DNA from: Zopfochytrium polystomum
Taxonomy: Eukaryota; Chytridiomycota; Chytridiomycetes; Chytridiales; Chytridiaceae
Reading direction: 5' to 3'
DNA: 64,000 nt
Assembly (NCBI GenBank): GCA_025765615.1
Contig: JAIVFJ010000008.1
Coordinates: 310,001-374,000, forward strand
Every line of letters starts with the position of its first letter. The first letter of the stretch is position 1. This document shows, piece by piece, positions 4,196 to 17,259 of this stretch. The notes under the pieces were generated by a model that saw only the letters and a list, made by a program, of their open reading frames with translations, was not told the origin of the DNA and searched no databases. Position numbers and translations under genes: made by a program.

Positions 4196-7100
4196 ATGCA
4201 ACAGCCTCAGGCGCAGGCGGCGTCGCCGTCGCCGTCGCCGTCTCAGCGCGAACTCATCGAGTTGGGCCGCAAGAGGGTGAGTGTTTTTTGAGAGAGAGTA
4301 AGAAGCGGGCGGCGAGCCGCCTCCCTCCCTCCCGTCCCCTCGCACCCACCGCTCATTTGCTGGCCAGGCGCCCTTTCTTCCTGAAAATGGTGTGATGAGG
4401 GAAGGATCGCCCGCATCCCAACTCTCTCAACACCACCGCTAAAACGCGTCGATCGACCCCTTTCCTTCCCCTTCCTGCAGCTGAAAAACTTCCAGAAGAA
4501 GTCGTCATCCGTCAGCGTTGTCGGTTCCAGCTCGGCGTCCGCTCCGTCTGTCCCGCCATCTTCGTCTCCTTCGACAATATTCCCCTCTCCACTGCCGTCC
4601 TCATCCGCTCTACCAGCGACCGCTGCTCCGCCAACGTCTGCCACGGCCAGCAGTCCAACATCGCGGCGAGACTTGTTGCATCCGGTGGTTGCCGCACTGC
4701 CTCCTGCCCCGGGCAGTGATCGAAGCGTCGTCGTCTCCGCGCATAGTGCTGCATATTCCGCGTCTTATGTCTCGCCGTCGACAAACGGCGGGGTCGACAG
4801 GCAAACTGTCGAGGACGACATTCCGTTCTCATTCTCTTCGGATCCGCCAGCTGCATCTCTGTTCACCGCCGGTCTCCAACCTCCAATTTCGCCGCATCAA
4901 ATATCTCAACGCTTGGATCGCGATAGCAGTATGGAGCAACAGCCGGGATCGTCGACCTCGGCAATTGCGTCAGCAGCCAAATTTGCCTCTTCCTTCCTCG
5001 CCTCAGCCGCAGCTGTCGTTACAGGCTCCTCCTCTCCCGTCCCGACATTAGACAATGTACGGCCCTCATCGGTAGCGTCCACAAAGAGCCCCACTTCTCC
5101 AGTCTCCATCGAACCGCCGACAGCGGCGAGATCGCCGTCCGGTGTTTCAGCGACGTCTAGTTTACCGTCTCCAACGGCGGTGACAAACCCACTGAAACCG
5201 CCCGGAGCCCTTGCCGCTGACAGCACACTTGCGGGAAAGTCGAATGGTGCTCATTATCAGCTTCCATCCCCCTCGACTCGTGTAGGGGCGTTACCTAGCG
5301 CTTTCAAGGCCTCCGGAAGCCTGTCATCCCTCCCTTCGTCGATTCCAATTTCCTTGTCCTCCACTCCGCCGATTCCACCGCAAGAAGACTCGATGAGACT
5401 TGTGAGTCTGCTGGTCGAAGAAAAGCAGGACCTCATGATGAAAAACGCCGAACTCGAAGCAAAGCTGCGCCAACTCTCTCTTTCCACCCAAAACCATACC
5501 GACTCAGGCAAGGGCCTACTGGAGCTGGATGAGGAGGGCACGGCGTCATCTTTTAAAACTCGGATAGACGAGTGGCGGATCGCGCTGACTCACGCTGAAC
5601 AGGAGCGTGATGAACTGGAGCGCTCCAACCATCGGCTTCGCGCCGAGCTGGATGAAACGAACAAGGTTATTAAGCGGCTTTTACAGCAGGCGCAGACGCG
5701 TGGTTCTCCACTCTCCCCGTCTCTTTCCGAGCCTTCAGTGCCTCAACGTGCACAACAAACGAACGAGTCGGCTTTCAATGAACCCGCACATTTTGCCTCG
5801 GCGGCAGACAAAGCAACCATCCAGCAGTTGGGTCATCGTGTGCGTGACCTTGAGCGCGCCGTGGAAGACCGCGACGAGCGCGTGGAGGATCTCTCCCAGC
5901 AGCTCCGTCGAATGCAAAGAGCCGTCGCGGACGCAGAGGCAGCCTCTAACGCGATCCGATCGGAGGCAGATTCACGATGCCGGGCCCTTGACACGCAAGT
6001 GCACGCCGCACGTGCCGACGCGGACGCGGCGCTCGCTCGCGCGGCCGCCAGCGATGCGCTGCTGAACGACCTCGAATCCGAGCTCGGCGAGCTCCGTGCC
6101 CGGTCCGGGCAGGAGCTAGCGGCGCTCCGCTCGGCGCTGGAGCGGGCCACAGACGAAAGCGTCGAGGCGAAAAAGCGGGCGGAGGACGCGGAGAAAGCGT
6201 CCGCGGAGGCCGAGACCCGCGCGCGTTCACGTGCGTCGTCCGCCGCAGTAGCGGCGCAGGGGCAAGCACGGAGGCTGGCGGATTTGCAGAGCGAGAACAA
6301 GGGGCTAGTGGAGAGACTCGACGAACTGCGCGGTGTGGTCGTCGAACTGCAGGACGAGCGCGCTACGTTGGTTGATCGTCTGCACGATTCTGAAGAGGGA
6401 CGAAAGAGGGTTGAGGCTGCTGCAGCGGCGGCTACAGCAGCAGCGGCTACCGCCGCTGCCGTTTCCCCTGTCGCAGGAGTCGTCGGGGGGGTTGCTGCCA
6501 TGAACTCTGTGGTCACCAGTGAAACGAATGGAGTGGACGAGGCTACGATTGCAACTGTTCCAGCGGACGAGGCCGAAAGGTGGAATTCGGTGGTCGCTCA
6601 CCTCCAAAGCGAAGTGGAAACGTTGAAAGTGGCGCTGCTGGCGGCTCAGGCGAACGCTATCCCCGTGCACGTCAGCCACGCTGGTCAGACCCACCCAGTC
6701 GAATCGGACTCGCAGCCATCGCAGCAAACAAAGCACGCAGCTTCCGACCACCATTCGGGTCACGGTCTCGACGGTGCCTCTGTTGAACATGAACACGTCG
6801 AGGACAACCACCAACATCACGGTCACCGCGATCATCACCAGCATGACGGCGACCAGCACGACCACGAACACGACCACAACCACGACCAGCAGCCCCACGA
6901 CCACGACGACCACCACCATCACCATGACCACGGCTCCCATCACAGCCACAGTCATGACGGGCACAGCCATCGTAATGGCGACCACTCAGCCGCCGTCGCC
7001 AATCAGTCTCACTCACCGAGTGTTCCAGCTGCCAAAGGCGACTCTCCGCAGGCCGGAGTTCCGCCGCCGCCGCCGCCAGCCGTGTCGTCGGTGATCGAAG

Positions 7101-8814: not shown

Positions 8815-10413
8815 TTATTGGGTTGCGCGAAGGAACTCATCTTGTTCGGTCGCATGTTCAGTCGCAGGCCCGCCCTCGGCCATGTCCCCATCGGCGGCGG
8901 CGGCGGCGGCGGCGGCGCCCGGCAGCTCGCTCTTTTCGTTCTTTTCGTCCTGTGCAGCGGTGGCCGCATCGGAGTCCGCCGCGATTTGCAGTTTAGCGGC
9001 TGCGGCGCGCATGGCGCGGCGCTCCCTCCGGGCCGCCGCGCGGCGCACGCGGAGCACCTTGTACCCCAGGAGCACGGCGGCAATGACGAGGCAGTACCCG
9101 GCGTACAGGAACACGGTCAAGTACGTGCCCTGGTTGCTCCAGCCGAGGATGGCGGCAAACACCTGCCAGCCGTAGTTGTTGCGCACTTCCTCCTCCGGGT
9201 TGCAGCAGTCGAGGTACCAGAGGGTCGAGTTGACGTCGTGCACGGTCGACTCGCTCAGGTCGAGGTCGGCGCCGCCGATGCGCTGCTTGAAGCGGTAGCT
9301 TTCAATCTTGCCGACCGAACGCGTCGTGAGGCCGACCGCGAGAATCAGGATGAAGATGGTGGACGCGAGGAAGAACGCGCGCGCTTTCAGCGAGTTGCCC
9401 AGGCGGAAGATTAGGTAGCCGAGCAGCGCGCCGCATCCAAGGCCGACAACGGCCGCGAGCGGGATGGTGCCGGGGTCGCTGCTTATGCCAATCTAAAGAT
9501 GTGCGATTGGTCAGAAGAGTTGCGCGAGCGACTTTCCTTGTTTTCTTTGCTTACCCCGCCGATAAACACGAGGCATTCGAGCCCCTCCCGAAGCACCGTC
9601 ACAAACGGGAGAATAAAGAGCGTGTAGCCGGCCGTGTTGGAGTTCGACAGCACGGGAGCGTCACGATCGGTCTTTGCGCTCGCGACGACAGCAACCGTCT
9701 CGTCCCCACGCGGTGCGGCGGACCTCTTTTTGAAAAAGTTGAAGACGGCGTTGAAGACGCGGTCCTCGAAAGACTGCTTGGACGCAACCGAGTCGGCGTC
9801 GCTGCGGCTGAAGTCTTCGTCGACAATTGCAAGCTGCTCCTGCTCGCTGGGGGATATCTGGTCCACCAACTGGCGGCGAAGCTTCTTGTGCCACTTTTCG
9901 GTAAGCTCCTCGGATTGGAGGAAGCCAAAGGCGAGGATCGTCAGCATGACGCCCGCGACGAGGCCCTCGATGCCTTCCCAAAGCTGCTCGGCGCTCTTCC
10001 TGAATGTCGACTGGTTGTAAGGACGAATCAAGAAGGCACTTGATTCACTCACCACAAGTTCTTTGCGTATTTGAACCAGACGACGAGGAACGCCGCGCCA
10101 ATGACGGCAGAGATGGCAACGGCGAGAAGCGTTCCCGTCAGGATCAACCTGAACATGCGTTTGTAGAGAAACGTGCCTCGCGGGAAAGACTGGTGCACGA
10201 ATGAGGCGAGCACTGAGACAACCATGGCGGCCTCCAGGGCCTTTAATCATTGACAACAGAACGCACAGGACGGGCGGTTTGAGTGGATGGGACGGGACGT
10301 GGTGTAAAAACGCTTGGTGTAAGTGGTCCGATCGATCTGCAGGCGGGTGGTTGCAGTAGAAGTCTCACCTCGCGCATAGTGACGAAAAAGATGGGGACCG
10401 AGAAGCCGAACAT
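8815..10413 (-). CDS. FTR1: High-affinity iron permease, FTR1 family
   Basis: Plasma-membrane permease that moves iron into the cell after oxidation by a partner ferroxidase. Four exons on the minus strand (10369-10413, 10053-10240, 9555-9999, 8815-9492) give 451 residues; yeast Ftr1 has about 404. The start fits the family: MFGFSVPIFFVTMREALE. Both signature R-E-x-L-E motifs are intact: REALE at residues 14-18 (split by intron 1) and REGLE at 215-219, followed by CLVFIGG. Seven or so hydrophobic segments are visible. An acidic/Ser-rich cytosolic loop (about residues 120-195) is longer than usual, and the Ala/Glu-rich tail carries no clear motif. The gene points away from the peroxidase/oxidase fusion gene and shares its promoter, the classic fungal FET3-FTR1 arrangement. 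Confidence 0.93.
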
Positions 10414-10439
10414 GTGAGTTGGGTGTGAGTGGTGGAGGT

Positions 10440-10493
10440 GGTGGTGGTGGTGGTGGTGGTGGTGGTGGTGGTGGTGGTGGTGGTGGTGGTGGT
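10440..10493. repeat. (GGT)n microsatellite
   Basis: About 18 near-perfect GGT units (ACC on the other strand), starting about 27 bases upstream of the FTR1 start codon. It must lie in the FTR1 leader or core promoter. Confidence 0.95.
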
Positions 10494-10568
10494 CGTGGCG
10501 AGTGTGTGGGAGCGAGAGAGAGAGTGAGAGTGTGAGTGAGCGAGCGGGCGGGCGTGTGGAGACGAGAA

Positions 10569-10572
<4 letters not shown>

Positions 10573-10660
<88 letters not shown>
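10573..10660. repeat. (GA)n-(TG)n compound microsatellite
   Basis: About 31 GA units pass directly into about 13 TG units. Purine-only GA tracts can form triplex DNA and alternating TG can form Z-DNA, so this may influence the divergent promoter; that effect is inferred. Confidence 0.95.
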
Positions 10661-10661
<1 letters not shown>

Positions 10662-11019
10662 CTGTCGTGTGCTCCGTTTGCGGCGGAAAGACAAACCGTT
10701 AGTTGGTAGATAGGCAGACAGACAGACATACTGTTGCACGATTTTGATGAACGACGCCACAAATTTGGAGCAGATTTTCCGACCGTGTTGGATGACGAAA
10801 GCCGATCTGATTGTGAACATACGCCGCAGCAGTGAATGAACTCAGACAAAAAAAAAAATTTAAATATAAACAGCGGAAAAATCGATAATGCAACATTTGT
10901 TGTCACCAACACGCACGATCTGCGAGAGCCAAGGAGAGGAGACAAAGAAACACACCTTCACTCAATTCCGATTCCGAGCGCTCTTTTTTTGTCTCTTCAC
11001 CACCATCATCAATCACATC

Positions 11020-14000
11020 ATGCGCCTGTCGCGGACCCTTTCCGCCGCCTCGGCAATCGGCGCCTTCATCGCCGCCGCCGCCGCCGCCACCTCATTCCCG
11101 CCCACTTGGCCGTCCCCGCGCTGGGACGAGCTGGAGTGGGTCATTTACCAGGACTCTGGCTACGCGGCCTCGCACTTTACGGAACCGCTGGTTCCTTGTT
11201 CTGACTTCAACGCCGTCGCCCTGCGCATAGCGTTCCACGACGCCGCTGGGCACCTGGCCAACGAGGGCGTCAGGGGCATTGACGCGTCCCTTCGCTACGA
11301 ACTCAACTACACCGAGAACGTGCTGACCTTCAACGAGGTCTACTTCCACCTGACCAACTTTCATAACGCCAGACTGTCATTATCGGATGCCGAAGCCGCC
11401 CAAATCGTGGCCGCAGTTGCGCTGTGCGACGGTCCATCCGTCCCCTTGCGTCTCGGACGTGTCGATGCAACACAAGCGAACCCGCCAGACGCCTTTCGAC
11501 CTTCTCATACAACAGATACCCTGCCGGAGCTCATCGGAAACTTTTCATTAATGGGCTTCAACCAGTCCGAGTTTATCACCCTCATAGCGTGCGCGCACAC
11601 TCTCGGCGGAGTCGAACACGACGAAGACCCAGCCATCGTGTCCGAGGAGGACAACAAAATCATGTTTGACTCGACAAACCTCGTCTACGACTACTCCATT
11701 GTCAACGAATACTTGAACGGCACAGTGCAGGACCCCCTAATCGTCGGTCCTGCTGCAACGAACGTGGATTTGCGCATATTTAACTCGGACGGCAATGCGA
11801 CCATCTCCAAGCTCAACAGTCCAGATGCTTACTTTGACGCCTGTGTGGTGTCACTTGAAAAGATCATTAACACAGTTCCCAAGAAGTCAGTTCTGTCGGA
11901 CGCGCTGGTTCCCTACGAAGTCAAACCTCATGGCGTGCGTTATGACATTGGTAGTGACAAAGTTCTGGTGTTCACTGGCGAAATCAGAGTGCGCAGCACG
12001 CTCTCCAATGTTACTTCAGTCGTTCTCAACGCAAAGGACGACGGTAGCATGATTCGTGCAAAGGCCCTGAAGGGCGTTGTTGCGACGGGCGGTTTCCCGA
12101 AGGAGACTTTCCAGGTGCTTGGGCGCGGTTTGTCTTCCCGTCAGGAGCGCTAACCATCGTTTTCGAGGCAGTTCTTCTCTTTCTCCCACAGTGCCGCAAA
12201 CAAAACTGTGTCGCAGTACTCGGTCTCCGTCGCATTTTCCAATGGAACAATTGCAACCTTCGACAACAATGGTGCCCTCTTTCCTATTGAACCTCGTGTC
12301 TTTTACTCAAAGGCCTTGAGTTGCGTCTCGCCACAAGAAAAACAAAACTGGACCTCCACTATCGTTGCTGCGGTTCGCATGGCGCTTGGTGGGCGATCTT
12401 GATGCTAACCCTTCGGTACGAATCACAGGTTCACCAAGATTTGGCTTCTAGCCCGGTCAACCTCGTACTCACGTACGGAGTGCGTGATCCGGACTGGTAC
12501 GTCCCAAGTGCAAACTTGTACGAGGCCACAGTCCCAATGTCCAAGATGGCAAGCCAAGACCAGTCTGCCAAGGGCTACGTTCTCTTCTCGGCCAGTGTCT
12601 CCATCCCCGCATGGACTCAGCGTCAAGCCACTTTTGACATCGTTGTGGGAACTTCCAGCTCAAACGTTACTCATGCATTCAACAAGCTGACGGACATTGT
12701 TGGGCAAGATTGTCCGTCCCAAGTCGTCTCCCTAGATTGGGAGCTCGGATACGTCAACGTCAACCTCAAGGATTTGGGGGCACGCCGCATGATTGGAATC
12801 AACGGTGTCTGGCCTCCCGAAGCGATTTACGCCAATATTGGGGACACGTTGTCGATAAACTTGGTACTTAACTGTTGTTGATTTTCAAGTAAAGGTTGTC
12901 AACTAATTTCAATCACAGAGGAACAACCTGAATGTTCCCACCGCTCTACACTTCTATGGACTCCACCAGACTGGAGCGCCGCAATTGGACGGGTTTCCGA
13001 TGGTCAATCAATGGTTTGTTGAATGTAGTCTACCGGCGAGATTTTTCCGTCTAACCATTTACCCAGCCCCATCCCAGCCAATTCAAACTACACATACACT
13101 GTTTTCCTGAATCAGACTGGAACGTTCTTTGTTGAGGGAAGCTACGCGGTACATATCATTTTTCCTTTTGTAGTACAGTTTGGCTTCTGATCCCCAATGG
13201 GCAGGGGCAAGCTGTGGACGGCCTTCGAGTTCCCTTGATTGTGCGCAGCACATCAGATCCGAAGTGGGACAGTCATGTTGTCACTCTTGCCGGTACGTGG
13301 GCGTCAAGATTCATCCACCCGTTTCTAACCACCCGCCCAACCGTACCTTAAATGCAGAGTGGTATGATGACGAGTACAGCACCATTTTTGGCACCTTCTC
13401 GAGCACCGTGAATCCCCTTGGTATCCTTCCGAAGCCCGAGGCGATCCTCGTGAACGAGCAAGTAAACTCTACGATTCACTTCAACTCGGGCGAAACCTAC
13501 ATGCTCCGCATTCTCTCCTTTGCCTCTCAACTGTCCATGTTTATCGCTATCGATTCCCACAATATGACAATAGTCGAGGTCGATGGTTTCGCGGTGGAAA
13601 GGTATGACGTGACAGCCCTGAAGATTGCTCCTGGTCAGCGGTTTGGTGTGCTGGTCAGAGGCATGCACGACCAGAACACAACTTTAGTCAACTATAAGAT
13701 GCATATCACGCAGCAAATTGGGAACGCGGACTCGGATGGAACGGAAGCACCGGTTGGCGCTCTAGGTGAGCAGCACCACTAAACGTTGGTCCCTCGATGT
13801 GTTAAACCTTCTAACTTCCGCTCGGGGTTGAAGGCACCTTCTTGACGTTATCCTATGGACCCAACAATCCGTACGGTAACGCCGTAGATACCACGGAGAG
13901 AAGTGATTCTTCCATTATTTACGACGACAGTAAACTGAGGAACCTCGTCTCGCGGACGAATACCGAGGTCTTGGTCCCAACTCGGCGCATCATTCTTGAC

Positions 14001-14991
14001 GCACAAGTGCGGATGATGGCGGACGGATCTGCTCGCGGGACTTTCAACAACACTGCGTACATTCAGCCAAAAGTGCCATCTCTGATCACTGCACTAACCA
14101 TTGGTGATTCGTTGAAGGGCAACCCCATCGTGTACGGTGCCGACACCAACCCTATCGTCATCGACGATGGTGTGACAGAAATTGTTATTTTAAACCAAGA
14201 CATCATCAACGCTCATTCATGTGAGTAAGCACGCTTTGATAGAGCCCCGAGGCGACTGCAGCTAAACACAATTTGATGTACCGTTCATTGTGGGTAGTCC
14301 ACTTGCACGGCCACTCGTTTCAGATAATGGATATTGACAATTTGCCCTTCGACCCTAGCAAGAACTTTGACACTGTGGACAATAATCCGAACGACGCCAA
14401 ATATCGGAAGGATGATGATGATGATGCAAACAGCGGCAACGCTGGAACAGCGTTGGGCCACCCGATGCGCGACACTGTCCAGATCCCACCTTCCTCCTTC
14501 GCTGTTTTAAGATTCCGCAATGACAATGCCGGGGTGTGGCTTCTTCACTCGACCAACTCGTTTCTACGTGAGCTGCCCTTTTTTTGATTTTTTTTCTGTT
14601 TCGCTCGTGTGGTTCTCGTCAGCTACTAGTGTCGATTCCTGGCAATTGCCTTAACTCGAACCTCACGACAGGTGACTTTGGCTTGGCTGCCACATTCATC
14701 GTCAATCCGAACGAAATTCCCAGCACGGGCGACCTGATGAGCGCTGCGTTCAACCAGACGTGCGCAGCAGCAGGCGTTCCCACCCGCGGCAACGCGGCCG
14801 GCAACCTCGGCACCGACCTCACCGGCTACATTTATTCGCCGGGTCTGCCGCCGACAGGCACCACCGCTGCATTCTGGGGCACAGTTTTCGGGTGCGCCGC
14901 GTGCGTGCTGGTTATGGTGATTTCGGTGTACCTGTTCCACATTCCGGACGATGCGTGGGTGGATAGATTCTTTGAAAAGAAGAACGATTGA
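11020..14991 (+). CDS. Secreted haem peroxidase fused to a degenerate FET3-type multicopper oxidase, C-terminal membrane anchor
   Basis: Ten exons (11020-12114, 12172-12372, 12429-12863, 12919-13013, 13067-13148, 13205-13292, 13358-13765, 13834-14220, 14298-14567, 14672-14991) give 1126 residues. ATG 11020 starts a signal peptide (MRLSRTLSAASAIGAF). Residues 30-300 are a plant/fungal-type peroxidase: distal Arg69 and His73 in RIAFHDA, proximal His193 in ACAHTLGG. Residues 300-540 look like beta-rich linker domains. Residues 540-1040 match the three cupredoxin domains of Fet3, and a membrane segment lies at 1086-1109. Copper ligands are badly eroded: HFHG is HFYG, the HSH pair is E632-G-S634, and HCHIEWH is HSTNSFL; only HSFHLHGH is whole. 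No start or stop separates the parts. The donor of intron 2 (GTTCGC) is the weakest junction. It probably partners FTR1. A catalytically dead oxidase is inference. Confidence 0.85.
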
Positions 14992-15712: not shown

Positions 15713-17259
15713 ATGGAGACCCTCGTAAACAGCGCCCTCGAGAAAGTCGGCCTCGCGACGCCGGCGTCCGTCCTCGGCGCCGCCGTCGCCCTCGCCGCCG
15801 CCGCGGCCCTGGTGCGCCTGCGCGCGAACGCCGCCGGCGGAAAGTGCGCGGCCGCGGACCTCAAGCGCGACCTCTCCGGAAAGGTCTTTGTGGGTTCGTA
15901 CGAAAACGTCGCCGTCCCATCGCTCGATATGCGTATGACCCGTTGACCTCGCCTCCCCCTCCCCCGCCCCTCCGCCCCCTCGCAGTCACGGGCGCAACCG
16001 CCGGCCTGGGCTTCCAGTCCGCGCTGCAGCTTGCAAAGCAGGGCGCCGTGGTCGTGTGCGCCGCGCGCAACTCGGACAAGTCGCGCCGCGCCGTAGCGGA
16101 CCTCAAGGCCGCGCTGCCCGCCCACCGGCGCGGCAACATCGTGTTCGAGGAGCTGGACCTGTCGTCCCTCGAATCCGTGCGCGCCTTTGCAGACCGCTAC
16201 GTCAAGTCCGGGAGGCCACTGCACGTGCTGATGAACAATGCCGGGATCATGGCGTTGCCGCAGCGCATGGTCTCGAGTGAGGAAGGCTATGAGCTCCAGA
16301 TGGCGTCGGTGCGTGTTTTTTAAGACGTAAGACTCCCCTCACTGACTGCCGGCTTCGCTTGCAGAACCATCTTGGCCACTTTTTGTTGACCCGCCTTCTG
16401 CTTGGTGTCATCAAAAAGACTGCTAAGGAAAATCCGTACGGTGGGCATCCCTAAATCGAACTTGCTTCTTTTCTAACTCTGCAGTTGCCTCTTCCATTCC
16501 AGGCCCGCTTCCAGGCCAAGGTGCTCGTATCATCAACCTCTCCAGTGCAGCCCACCGCTGGGGCAATGTGGATTTGAATGACTTTATGAACTCGAAAAGC
16601 TACAGTCCTACCAAGACATACGGGTAACGCTCCACTTCAATCGCATTTTTTCGGCAGATCCCGTGGACAAGACCCTCTGAATCGTTTGTGCCGTTCTTCC
16701 TCCAGAGACACGAAACTCTGCAATATATTCTTCTCCACAGCACTGGCGCGGAGAGAACTGGCGGGAACCGGCGTTACCGTCAACGCGGTGCACCCAGGCG
16801 CTGTCATGACGTATGTTTTGTTTGCCCATCCTCCTGTTTCGCGCCTTTCAAATTAACCGTTCTCCACGAATCTTCCGCCGCAAACGATCGTCGCTGTCAA
16901 GTGAGCTGCCGCGCAGTATGATTGGTGGATTCCTCGGCCAAAACGTCCGATACCTTTTCGCAGCCTTGACTCCAATTCTGTCGCTCGTTCTGAAAACACC
17001 CTGGGAAGGCACGCAAACGCAGCTGCACGTTGCGCTCAGCGAAGAGGGTGGAACAATTACCGGCGCCTACTGGTAAATGCTCAAATGACAGAGTGCTAGT
17101 GCTTGTGGGAATGTTGAATTGACTATGGACTTTAGGGCTGACTGCAAACGGGCACCGTTTCTGGACAAGGCCGGGCAGACGACCGATCCGGAGTTTGCGG
17201 ACAAGGTTTGGGACCTGTCGGTGCAGCTGACGGAAGCTGGTGCGAAGAAGTCACTCTAG
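15713..17259 (+). CDS. Membrane-anchored short-chain dehydrogenase/reductase (retinol dehydrogenase/WWOX-like)
   Basis: NAD(P)-dependent oxidoreductase of the classical SDR fold. Seven exons (15713-15893, 15986-16308, 16365-16440, 16503-16623, 16706-16810, 16902-17072, 17136-17259) give 366 residues. An Ala-rich hydrophobic N-terminal segment (about residues 15-38) should anchor it in a membrane. The cofactor loop is VVTGATAGLGF (TGxxxGxG), the structural motif is MNNAGIM (NNAG), then INLSSAAH supplies the catalytic Ser, and the active site is YGDTK (YxxxK), split by an intron. HPGAVMTEL follows, typical for retinol-dehydrogenase-like SDRs. The substrate is unknown. Exon 4 could alternatively start 12 bases later. 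It converges on the coiled-coil gene with 186 bases between stops. Confidence 0.9.

Follow-up and report, generated by a model that had tools for sequence, protein, structure and literature searches.

A haem peroxidase joined to a Fet3-type protein with degraded copper sites, encoded head to head with FTR1 in the chytrid Zopfochytrium polystomum

Results

The sequence analysed (the window) is a stretch of 64,000 nucleotides (nt) from the chytrid Zopfochytrium polystomum (assembly GCA_025765615.1, contig JAIVFJ010000008.1, nt 310,001–374,000 of the forward strand), lying on contig C8 of a genome of 80 Mb in 761 contigs. It carries a gene (nt 11020–14991, plus strand) whose ten exons join in frame to specify a protein of 1126 amino acids (aa) followed by a stop codon; all nine introns are of the GT-AG type and 53–104 base pairs (bp) long (Table 1). 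The protein consists, in order, of a signal peptide, a haem peroxidase apparently of the Hybrid B type, three cupredoxin domains of the Fet3 type and a C-terminal membrane segment, the signal peptide and membrane segment having been assigned by eye. A Pfam scan placed PF00141 (peroxidase) at residues 62–201, and PF07732, PF00394 and PF07731 above cut-off at residues 540–652, 659–782 and 878–1034. The closest solved structure is yeast Fet3 (1ZPU; residues 534–1083, E 9.8e-64). Head to head with this gene lies an FTR1 iron permease gene, the joined 449 aa reading of which matches PF03239 at 5e-46. An earlier note on this DNA had described a haem peroxidase, with distal Arg69/His73 and proximal His193, that continues in frame over ten exons into a FET3-type oxidase. 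The single reading frame, the active-site residues and the four Pfam families it named were all recovered, while a working oxidase in the second half is not supported by the ligand data given below.

Table 1. Features of the fusion gene and the adjoining FTR1 gene (coordinates are those of the window).
Feature	Coordinates	Strand	Description
FTR1 iron permease gene	8815..10413	-	head to head with the fusion; REALE and REGLE motifs; inner splice sites approximate
intergenic region between the FTR1 and fusion start codons	10414..11019	.	606 bp
exon 1	11020..12114	+	residues 1-365: signal peptide, haem peroxidase domain (Arg69, His73, His193), start of peroxidase C-terminal domain
intron 1	12115..12171	+	57 bp; contains in-frame TAA near 12151; position matched in C157 paralogue
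exon 2	12172..12372	+	residues 366-432, peroxidase C-terminal domain
exon 3	12429..12863	+	end of peroxidase (to ~529) and start of Fet3 part (from ~534); junction ~12715-12730; continuous exon in paralogue
exon 4	12919..13013	+	first copper motif: HFYG replaces HFHG
exon 5	13067..13148	+	second copper motif: FVEGS replaces WYHSH
exon 6	13205..13292	+	cupredoxin domains 1-2
exon 7	13358..13765	+	cupredoxin domain 2; GILPKP vs GAEPIP of Fet3 (E185 lost)
exon 8	13834..14220	+	to third motif HSFHLHGH, retained; motif finished in exon 9
exon 9	14298..14567	+	third motif, acidic loop, fourth motif HSTNSFL replaces HCHIEWH
exon 10	14672..14991	+	end of cupredoxin domain 3, C-terminal membrane segment (by eye), stop

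Judged from sequence, the peroxidase-Fet3 fusion is real and is a single gene. Homology to a WSC-type Hybrid B-like peroxidase (P0006) ends, and Fet3 homology begins, within exon 3, with no intron between the halves. A paralogue on contig C157 (genome G000) has the identical domain order and introns 1–7 at matching positions, while introns 8 and 9 are absent from it. Its equivalent of intron 1 lies at ETFQ^FFSFSHS, with the donor GTAGGT. Two other readings of this intron were rejected: a peroxidase ending at the TAA, because this codon falls inside an intron conserved in the paralogue (it is part of a CTAAC-like branch point), and an acceptor at 12191, which, read by eye, breaks the frame set by the 12115 donor (the paralogue uses the equivalent of 12171).

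The dN/dS values between the two Zopfochytrium paralogues are 0.074 for the peroxidase core, 0.119 for the peroxidase C-terminal domain, 0.087 for the Fet3 half and 0.101 for the tail, and are rough because dS is about 1 or more. By this measure both halves are under purifying selection, which is strong for the Fet3 half.

The deposited gene models of Z. polystomum tell against a single gene, as both are split. The 'Cupredoxin' P0002 (655 aa) is identical (100%) to residues 472–1126 of the fusion, and P0010 covers only the Fet3 half of a copy like that on C157. Taken at face value, they describe a peroxidase gene running to about 12151 and a separate oxidase gene downstream. Such an arrangement is highly improbable: P0002 lacks a signal peptide and starts at Met472, in the middle of sequence conserved in the C-terminal domain of the peroxidase; the TAA is intronic; and five other species have a single deposited protein. 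The split model is accordingly taken as an annotation error.

Further partial or altered copies were found. A copy on contig C41 is 98.1% identical to that of C157 over a 6716-base alignment, and is presumably the other haplotype. Its peroxidase part (L047) is read in two frames that meet at ~4782–4795, unlike the C157 copy, and represents either a broken haplotype or an assembly error. Two sequences close to the C157 paralogue (L050, 4107–4537, on C35; L051, 3845–4275, on C586) contain only the last third of the gene, in several frames and with stops, and have the look of a pseudogene fragment that occurs on both contigs.

The earlier note suggested looking for the same architecture in the proteomes of early-diverging fungi, and a search of deposited proteins found one protein with both parts, in equal domain order, in at least five other chytrid species. 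This is a lower bound, as the search covered the 8000 candidates with the most words in common with the query and, among proteins, those of 0.55–1.75 times the query length, a range outside which separate peroxidase pieces fall. The matches are from Entophlyctis luteolus (P0001; 65% identity over 98% of the query), Physocladia obscura (P0003; 55% over 94%), Irineochytrium annulatum (P0004; 45% over 98%), Cladochytrium tenue (P0005, partial; 43% over 83%) and Blyttiomyces sp. JEL0837 (P0126, partial; 45% identity to P0001 over 68%). All six fusion-bearing species belong to the Chytridiomycetes. The Entophlyctis protein is named 'ferroxidase fet3', which hides the peroxidase and is probably wrong. 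In its deposited model NA is followed directly by LPFD; the FHLHGH that belongs there is missing, probably because an intron was called in error.

The peroxidase half looks alive, with the residues of the haem pocket intact. All 14 positions checked are present in 7/7 fusions, among them R69, F72, H73, N100, H193, F216 and D257. They include the hallmarks of Hybrid B peroxidases, namely the distal Arg-Phe-His (R69, F72, H73) and the proximal H193 with F216 and D257; from the alignment, we take D257 to be the Asp partner of the proximal His. A manganese-peroxidase site was considered and rejected, since the residues at 62 and 66, ahead of Arg69, are by eye Asp and Val, unlike the Glu pair of such a site. 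Stand-alone relatives of this half occur in the Z. polystomum genome on contigs C86, C64 and C398 (39% identical). In passages of three papers (PMC5571214, PMC8945051, PMC4232752), the chytrid enzymes are the basal members of the Hybrid B peroxidase family, and WSC or carbohydrate-binding modules are described as C-terminal partners. The words copper and ferroxidase do not occur in the main text of PMC5571214 and PMC8945051, nor do copper, cupredoxin and multicopper in that of PMC4232752.

The Fet3 half is Fet3-like by descent but, from its residues, can hardly be an oxidase. Ligand mapping gave the type-3 copper pair (H126/H128) as lost in 7/7 fusions, as is E185 (Leu in six, Gln in one), which in yeast Fet3 forms part of the Fe(II) pocket according to the passages available of PMC11817551. 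Of the acidic Fe(II) site of Fet3 (E185, D283 and D409), the mapping covered E185 and D409. Cells affected by the missing stretch of P0001 or by the cut C-termini of P0005 and P0126 were scored as no data. Where data exist, H485 and H489 are lost in 5/5 fusions, C484 in 4/5 (Entophlyctis retains it), H413 in 3/5 and H483 in 1/5, and the His-Cys-His motif is broken in all five; H416 and H418 are retained in 5/5. H83 is lost in 4/7 and H81 in 1/7. The window protein retains five of the 11 ligands of the T1 copper and trinuclear cluster. A reading as a working ferroxidase was rejected on the lost ligands, as was a skipped exon holding the last copper motif, since the paralogue, without that intron, still reads HSTNTFL.

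The ligand table initially comprised the fusions, 12 hand-picked matches and the ordinary Fet3 encoded on contig C27 of the same genome, and was later widened to 61 controls (60 listed matches, P0011–P0070, plus C27; P0071–P0125 are outside the count). All 11 copper ligands are kept in 57 of these stand-alone relatives, and E185 likewise in 57/61; C27 has the full set and E185. The four with fewer ligands are presumably faulty gene models: in P0064 and P0067 the shortfall consists entirely of gaps, P0060 combines one gap with three ligand positions occupied by other letters, and P0069 has one other letter and two gaps. As P0055, P0056, P0068 and P0070 are without E185 yet keep all copper ligands, loss of E185 alone does not mark a dead enzyme. 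In Blyttiomyces and Cladochytrium the first motif is still HFHG while the second is lost. It seems from this pattern that the type-3 pair and E185 were lost early and that the remaining ligands decayed later.

After HSFHLHGH the fusion protein has an acidic loop, KDDDDDANSG (window ~14330–14460), which is possibly an iron-handling loop. Like runs are present in the C157 paralogue and Entophlyctis P0001; Physocladia P0003 and Irineochytrium P0004 have none.

In the Fet3 tree the fusions lie on one side of a branch (100/97) and adjoin C27 (100/99), which is the only ordinary chytrid Fet3 included. In the peroxidase tree they again lie on one side of a branch (100/100) and sit among HyBpox-like fungal matches, this tree having no sequence named HyBpox and no Family II/III outgroup. 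Both trees are unrooted, the root serving for drawing only. They agree in branching order for Physocladia, Entophlyctis and then the two Zopfochytrium copies. The deeper branches disagree: the peroxidase tree pairs Cladochytrium with Blyttiomyces (93/89), which the Fet3 tree does not. In the Fet3 half, three introns, one following SINL, one within the Cys codon of NQC and one preceding EWY, have positions and phases in common with the ordinary FET3 on C27, for which reason the Fet3 part seems to have entered as genomic DNA. Apparently the fusion was made once, when a Hybrid B haem peroxidase was joined ahead of a FET3 that lay head to head with FTR1.

The head-to-head arrangement recurs within the genome, which has two FTR1-fusion pairs and one ordinary FTR1-FET3 pair. 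The C157 fusion and its FTR1 are 674 bp apart in the equal arrangement, and the ordinary pair on C27 is also head to head. The intergenic region in the window is presumably a shared promoter; it contains long GGT, GA and GT microsatellites (10430–10665), and a motif search of it gave only scattered GATA-like matches, counted without a chance control. A genome scan placed FTR1 loci on C8, C157/C41, C27, C182 and C326, and no multicopper oxidase or peroxidase on C182 or C326 was among the matches listed. The C326 gene (L065) is a divergent member of the FTR1 family (REAIE, REGVE) beside an EF-1 alpha-like gene. The FTR1 genes beside the fusions keep their REXLE motifs and, by eye, have DXXE (DLSE, DLTE) roughly where DASE stands in yeast; the C27 FTR1 has DADD there. 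Downstream of the fusion, a gene at window ~15713–17080 (+) resembles a short-chain dehydrogenase (TGATAGLGF, NNAG; by eye).

Discussion

The textbook example of iron uptake that needs copper is the high-affinity reductive pathway of fungi. In yeast, Fe(III) is channelled from Fet3 to Ftr1 (PMC11817551, passages available). The best overall explanation of the present locus, put forward tentatively, is that the fusion is a chytrid partner of FTR1 in which haem catalysis has replaced copper catalysis. Because the Fet3 half has lost its copper ligands, any oxidation of iron by the fusion must be by the haem peroxidase. Selection has maintained, beside FTR1, a barrel that does not oxidise, together with a peroxidase whose pocket is intact; this suggests that oxidation passed to the peroxidase, with docking as the reason why the barrel was kept.

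Spelled out in full, this becomes a slightly more speculative proposal, that of a copper-free Fet3-Ftr1 pump. The fusion would be anchored at the cell surface and its dead barrel would still dock with FTR1; the tethered peroxidase would oxidise Fe(II) with H2O2 (2 Fe(II) + H2O2 + 2 H+ -> 2 Fe(III) + 2 H2O), and the Fe(III) would pass to FTR1. The outcome would be reductive iron uptake independent of copper, which would also remove peroxide next to Fe(II). Such a pump would be a eukaryotic counterpart of the bacterial system of Ftr1, cupredoxin and haem peroxidase, reached independently and with an unrelated peroxidase. In the bacterial EfeUOB, the Ftr1-type permease is served by a haem peroxidase for which oxidation of Fe(II) has been proposed (available text of PMC8197335 and PMC9174327). 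The earlier note had imagined peroxide use coupled to iron oxidation at the cell surface. The fusion, the membrane anchor and the link to iron in that idea are supported, the last more strongly than the note could tell, since FTR1 lies head to head with the fusion; a working ferroxidase is not supported.

Several observations count against such a pump. With E185 lost, an iron path through the barrel would differ from that of yeast Fet3, and D409, kept in 3/6 fusions with data (the window protein included), is changed in the other three. The adjacency to FTR1 is seen in one genome only, where the two fusion pairs are duplicates of each other. Oxidation of Fe(II) by Hybrid B peroxidases is not described in those parts of the literature that were examined. 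RiFTR1 transports iron in yeast without a ferroxidase (PMC11836134, passages available), so FTR1 may not need an oxidase.

Of the other explanations, the one that survives best, while still unlikely, is that the dead Fet3 half is a mere membrane anchor or cell-surface scaffold for a peroxidase acting outside the cell, either to remove H2O2 or to oxidise organic substrates, with FTR1 adjacent by inheritance from the old FTR1-FET3 pair. The modules otherwise fused to Hybrid B peroxidases, and the tie of these enzymes to peroxide defence (available text of PMC5571214 and PMC8945051), fit this explanation, and the head-to-head order, being found in the ordinary pair also, may indeed be inherited. 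It sits less well with purifying selection on the entire three-domain barrel, beyond the membrane segment, and with an FTR1 that has remained intact and beside the fusion through duplication. Less probable again is that the fusion docks with FTR1 and oxidises no iron, the permease needing no ferroxidase and the peroxidase shielding it from peroxide at the uptake site; the loss of E185, by which iron would no longer be handled as in Fet3, and the behaviour of RiFTR1 both speak for it. That the Fet3 half binds some copper through its remaining ligands, HSFHLHGH among them, as a changed oxidase or a copper/iron store, is very unlikely given the universal loss of the type-3 pair, the loss of H489 wherever there are data, and replacement residues that vary among species, as expected after loss of constraint.

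The sequences are public, and their architecture and loss of copper ligands seem to have gone unremarked. The earlier note knew of no peroxidase-ferroxidase fusion, and none was found in the literature searched (titles, abstracts and passages). Searches on chytrid ferroxidase with peroxidase, fusions, Hybrid B with WSC or cupredoxin, and inactive Fet3 gave no description of the architecture among the matches listed, which included few subscription papers. The decay of copper centres and gain of a haem site in a conserved, partner-like protein suggests that the oxidation step may be transferable to another cofactor and oxidant. The fusion also offers a testable case of an enzyme domain turned scaffold, and the label on the Entophlyctis protein is a warning about probably wrong annotation.

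Three known systems invite comparison. The fusion shares with Fet3-Ftr1 of yeast and other fungi the three Fet3-type cupredoxin domains, the single C-terminal membrane segment and the adjoining FTR1 gene, but differs in lacking the copper ligands and E185 and in having a haem peroxidase of ~530 residues in place of the N-terminus. With the Hybrid B peroxidases (HyBpox) it has in common the peroxidase domain and its C-terminal region, with catalytic residues intact, whereas the known partners of those enzymes, in the available text of PMC5571214, are WSC or carbohydrate-binding modules and not a Fet3-type barrel with a membrane anchor. Bacterial EfeUOB (FepABC, YwbLMN) also combines an Ftr1-family permease, a cupredoxin-containing protein and a secreted haem peroxidase. 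There, however, each part is a protein of its own, EfeB belongs to the DyP-type peroxidases where the chytrid fusion has PF00141, and EfeO combines an M75 domain with at most one cupredoxin domain (present in the EfeOI type, according to the accessible text of PMC8197335 and PMC9174327). The Pfam scan of the fusion protein gave no match to DyP or M75 at E 0.1, only PF00141 and the three multicopper-oxidase domains. The fusion thus recalls EfeUOB in a likeness of parts and, if the proposed pump is real, eukaryotic and bacterial Ftr1 systems would be built on a similar plan of permease, cupredoxin-fold part and haem peroxidase.

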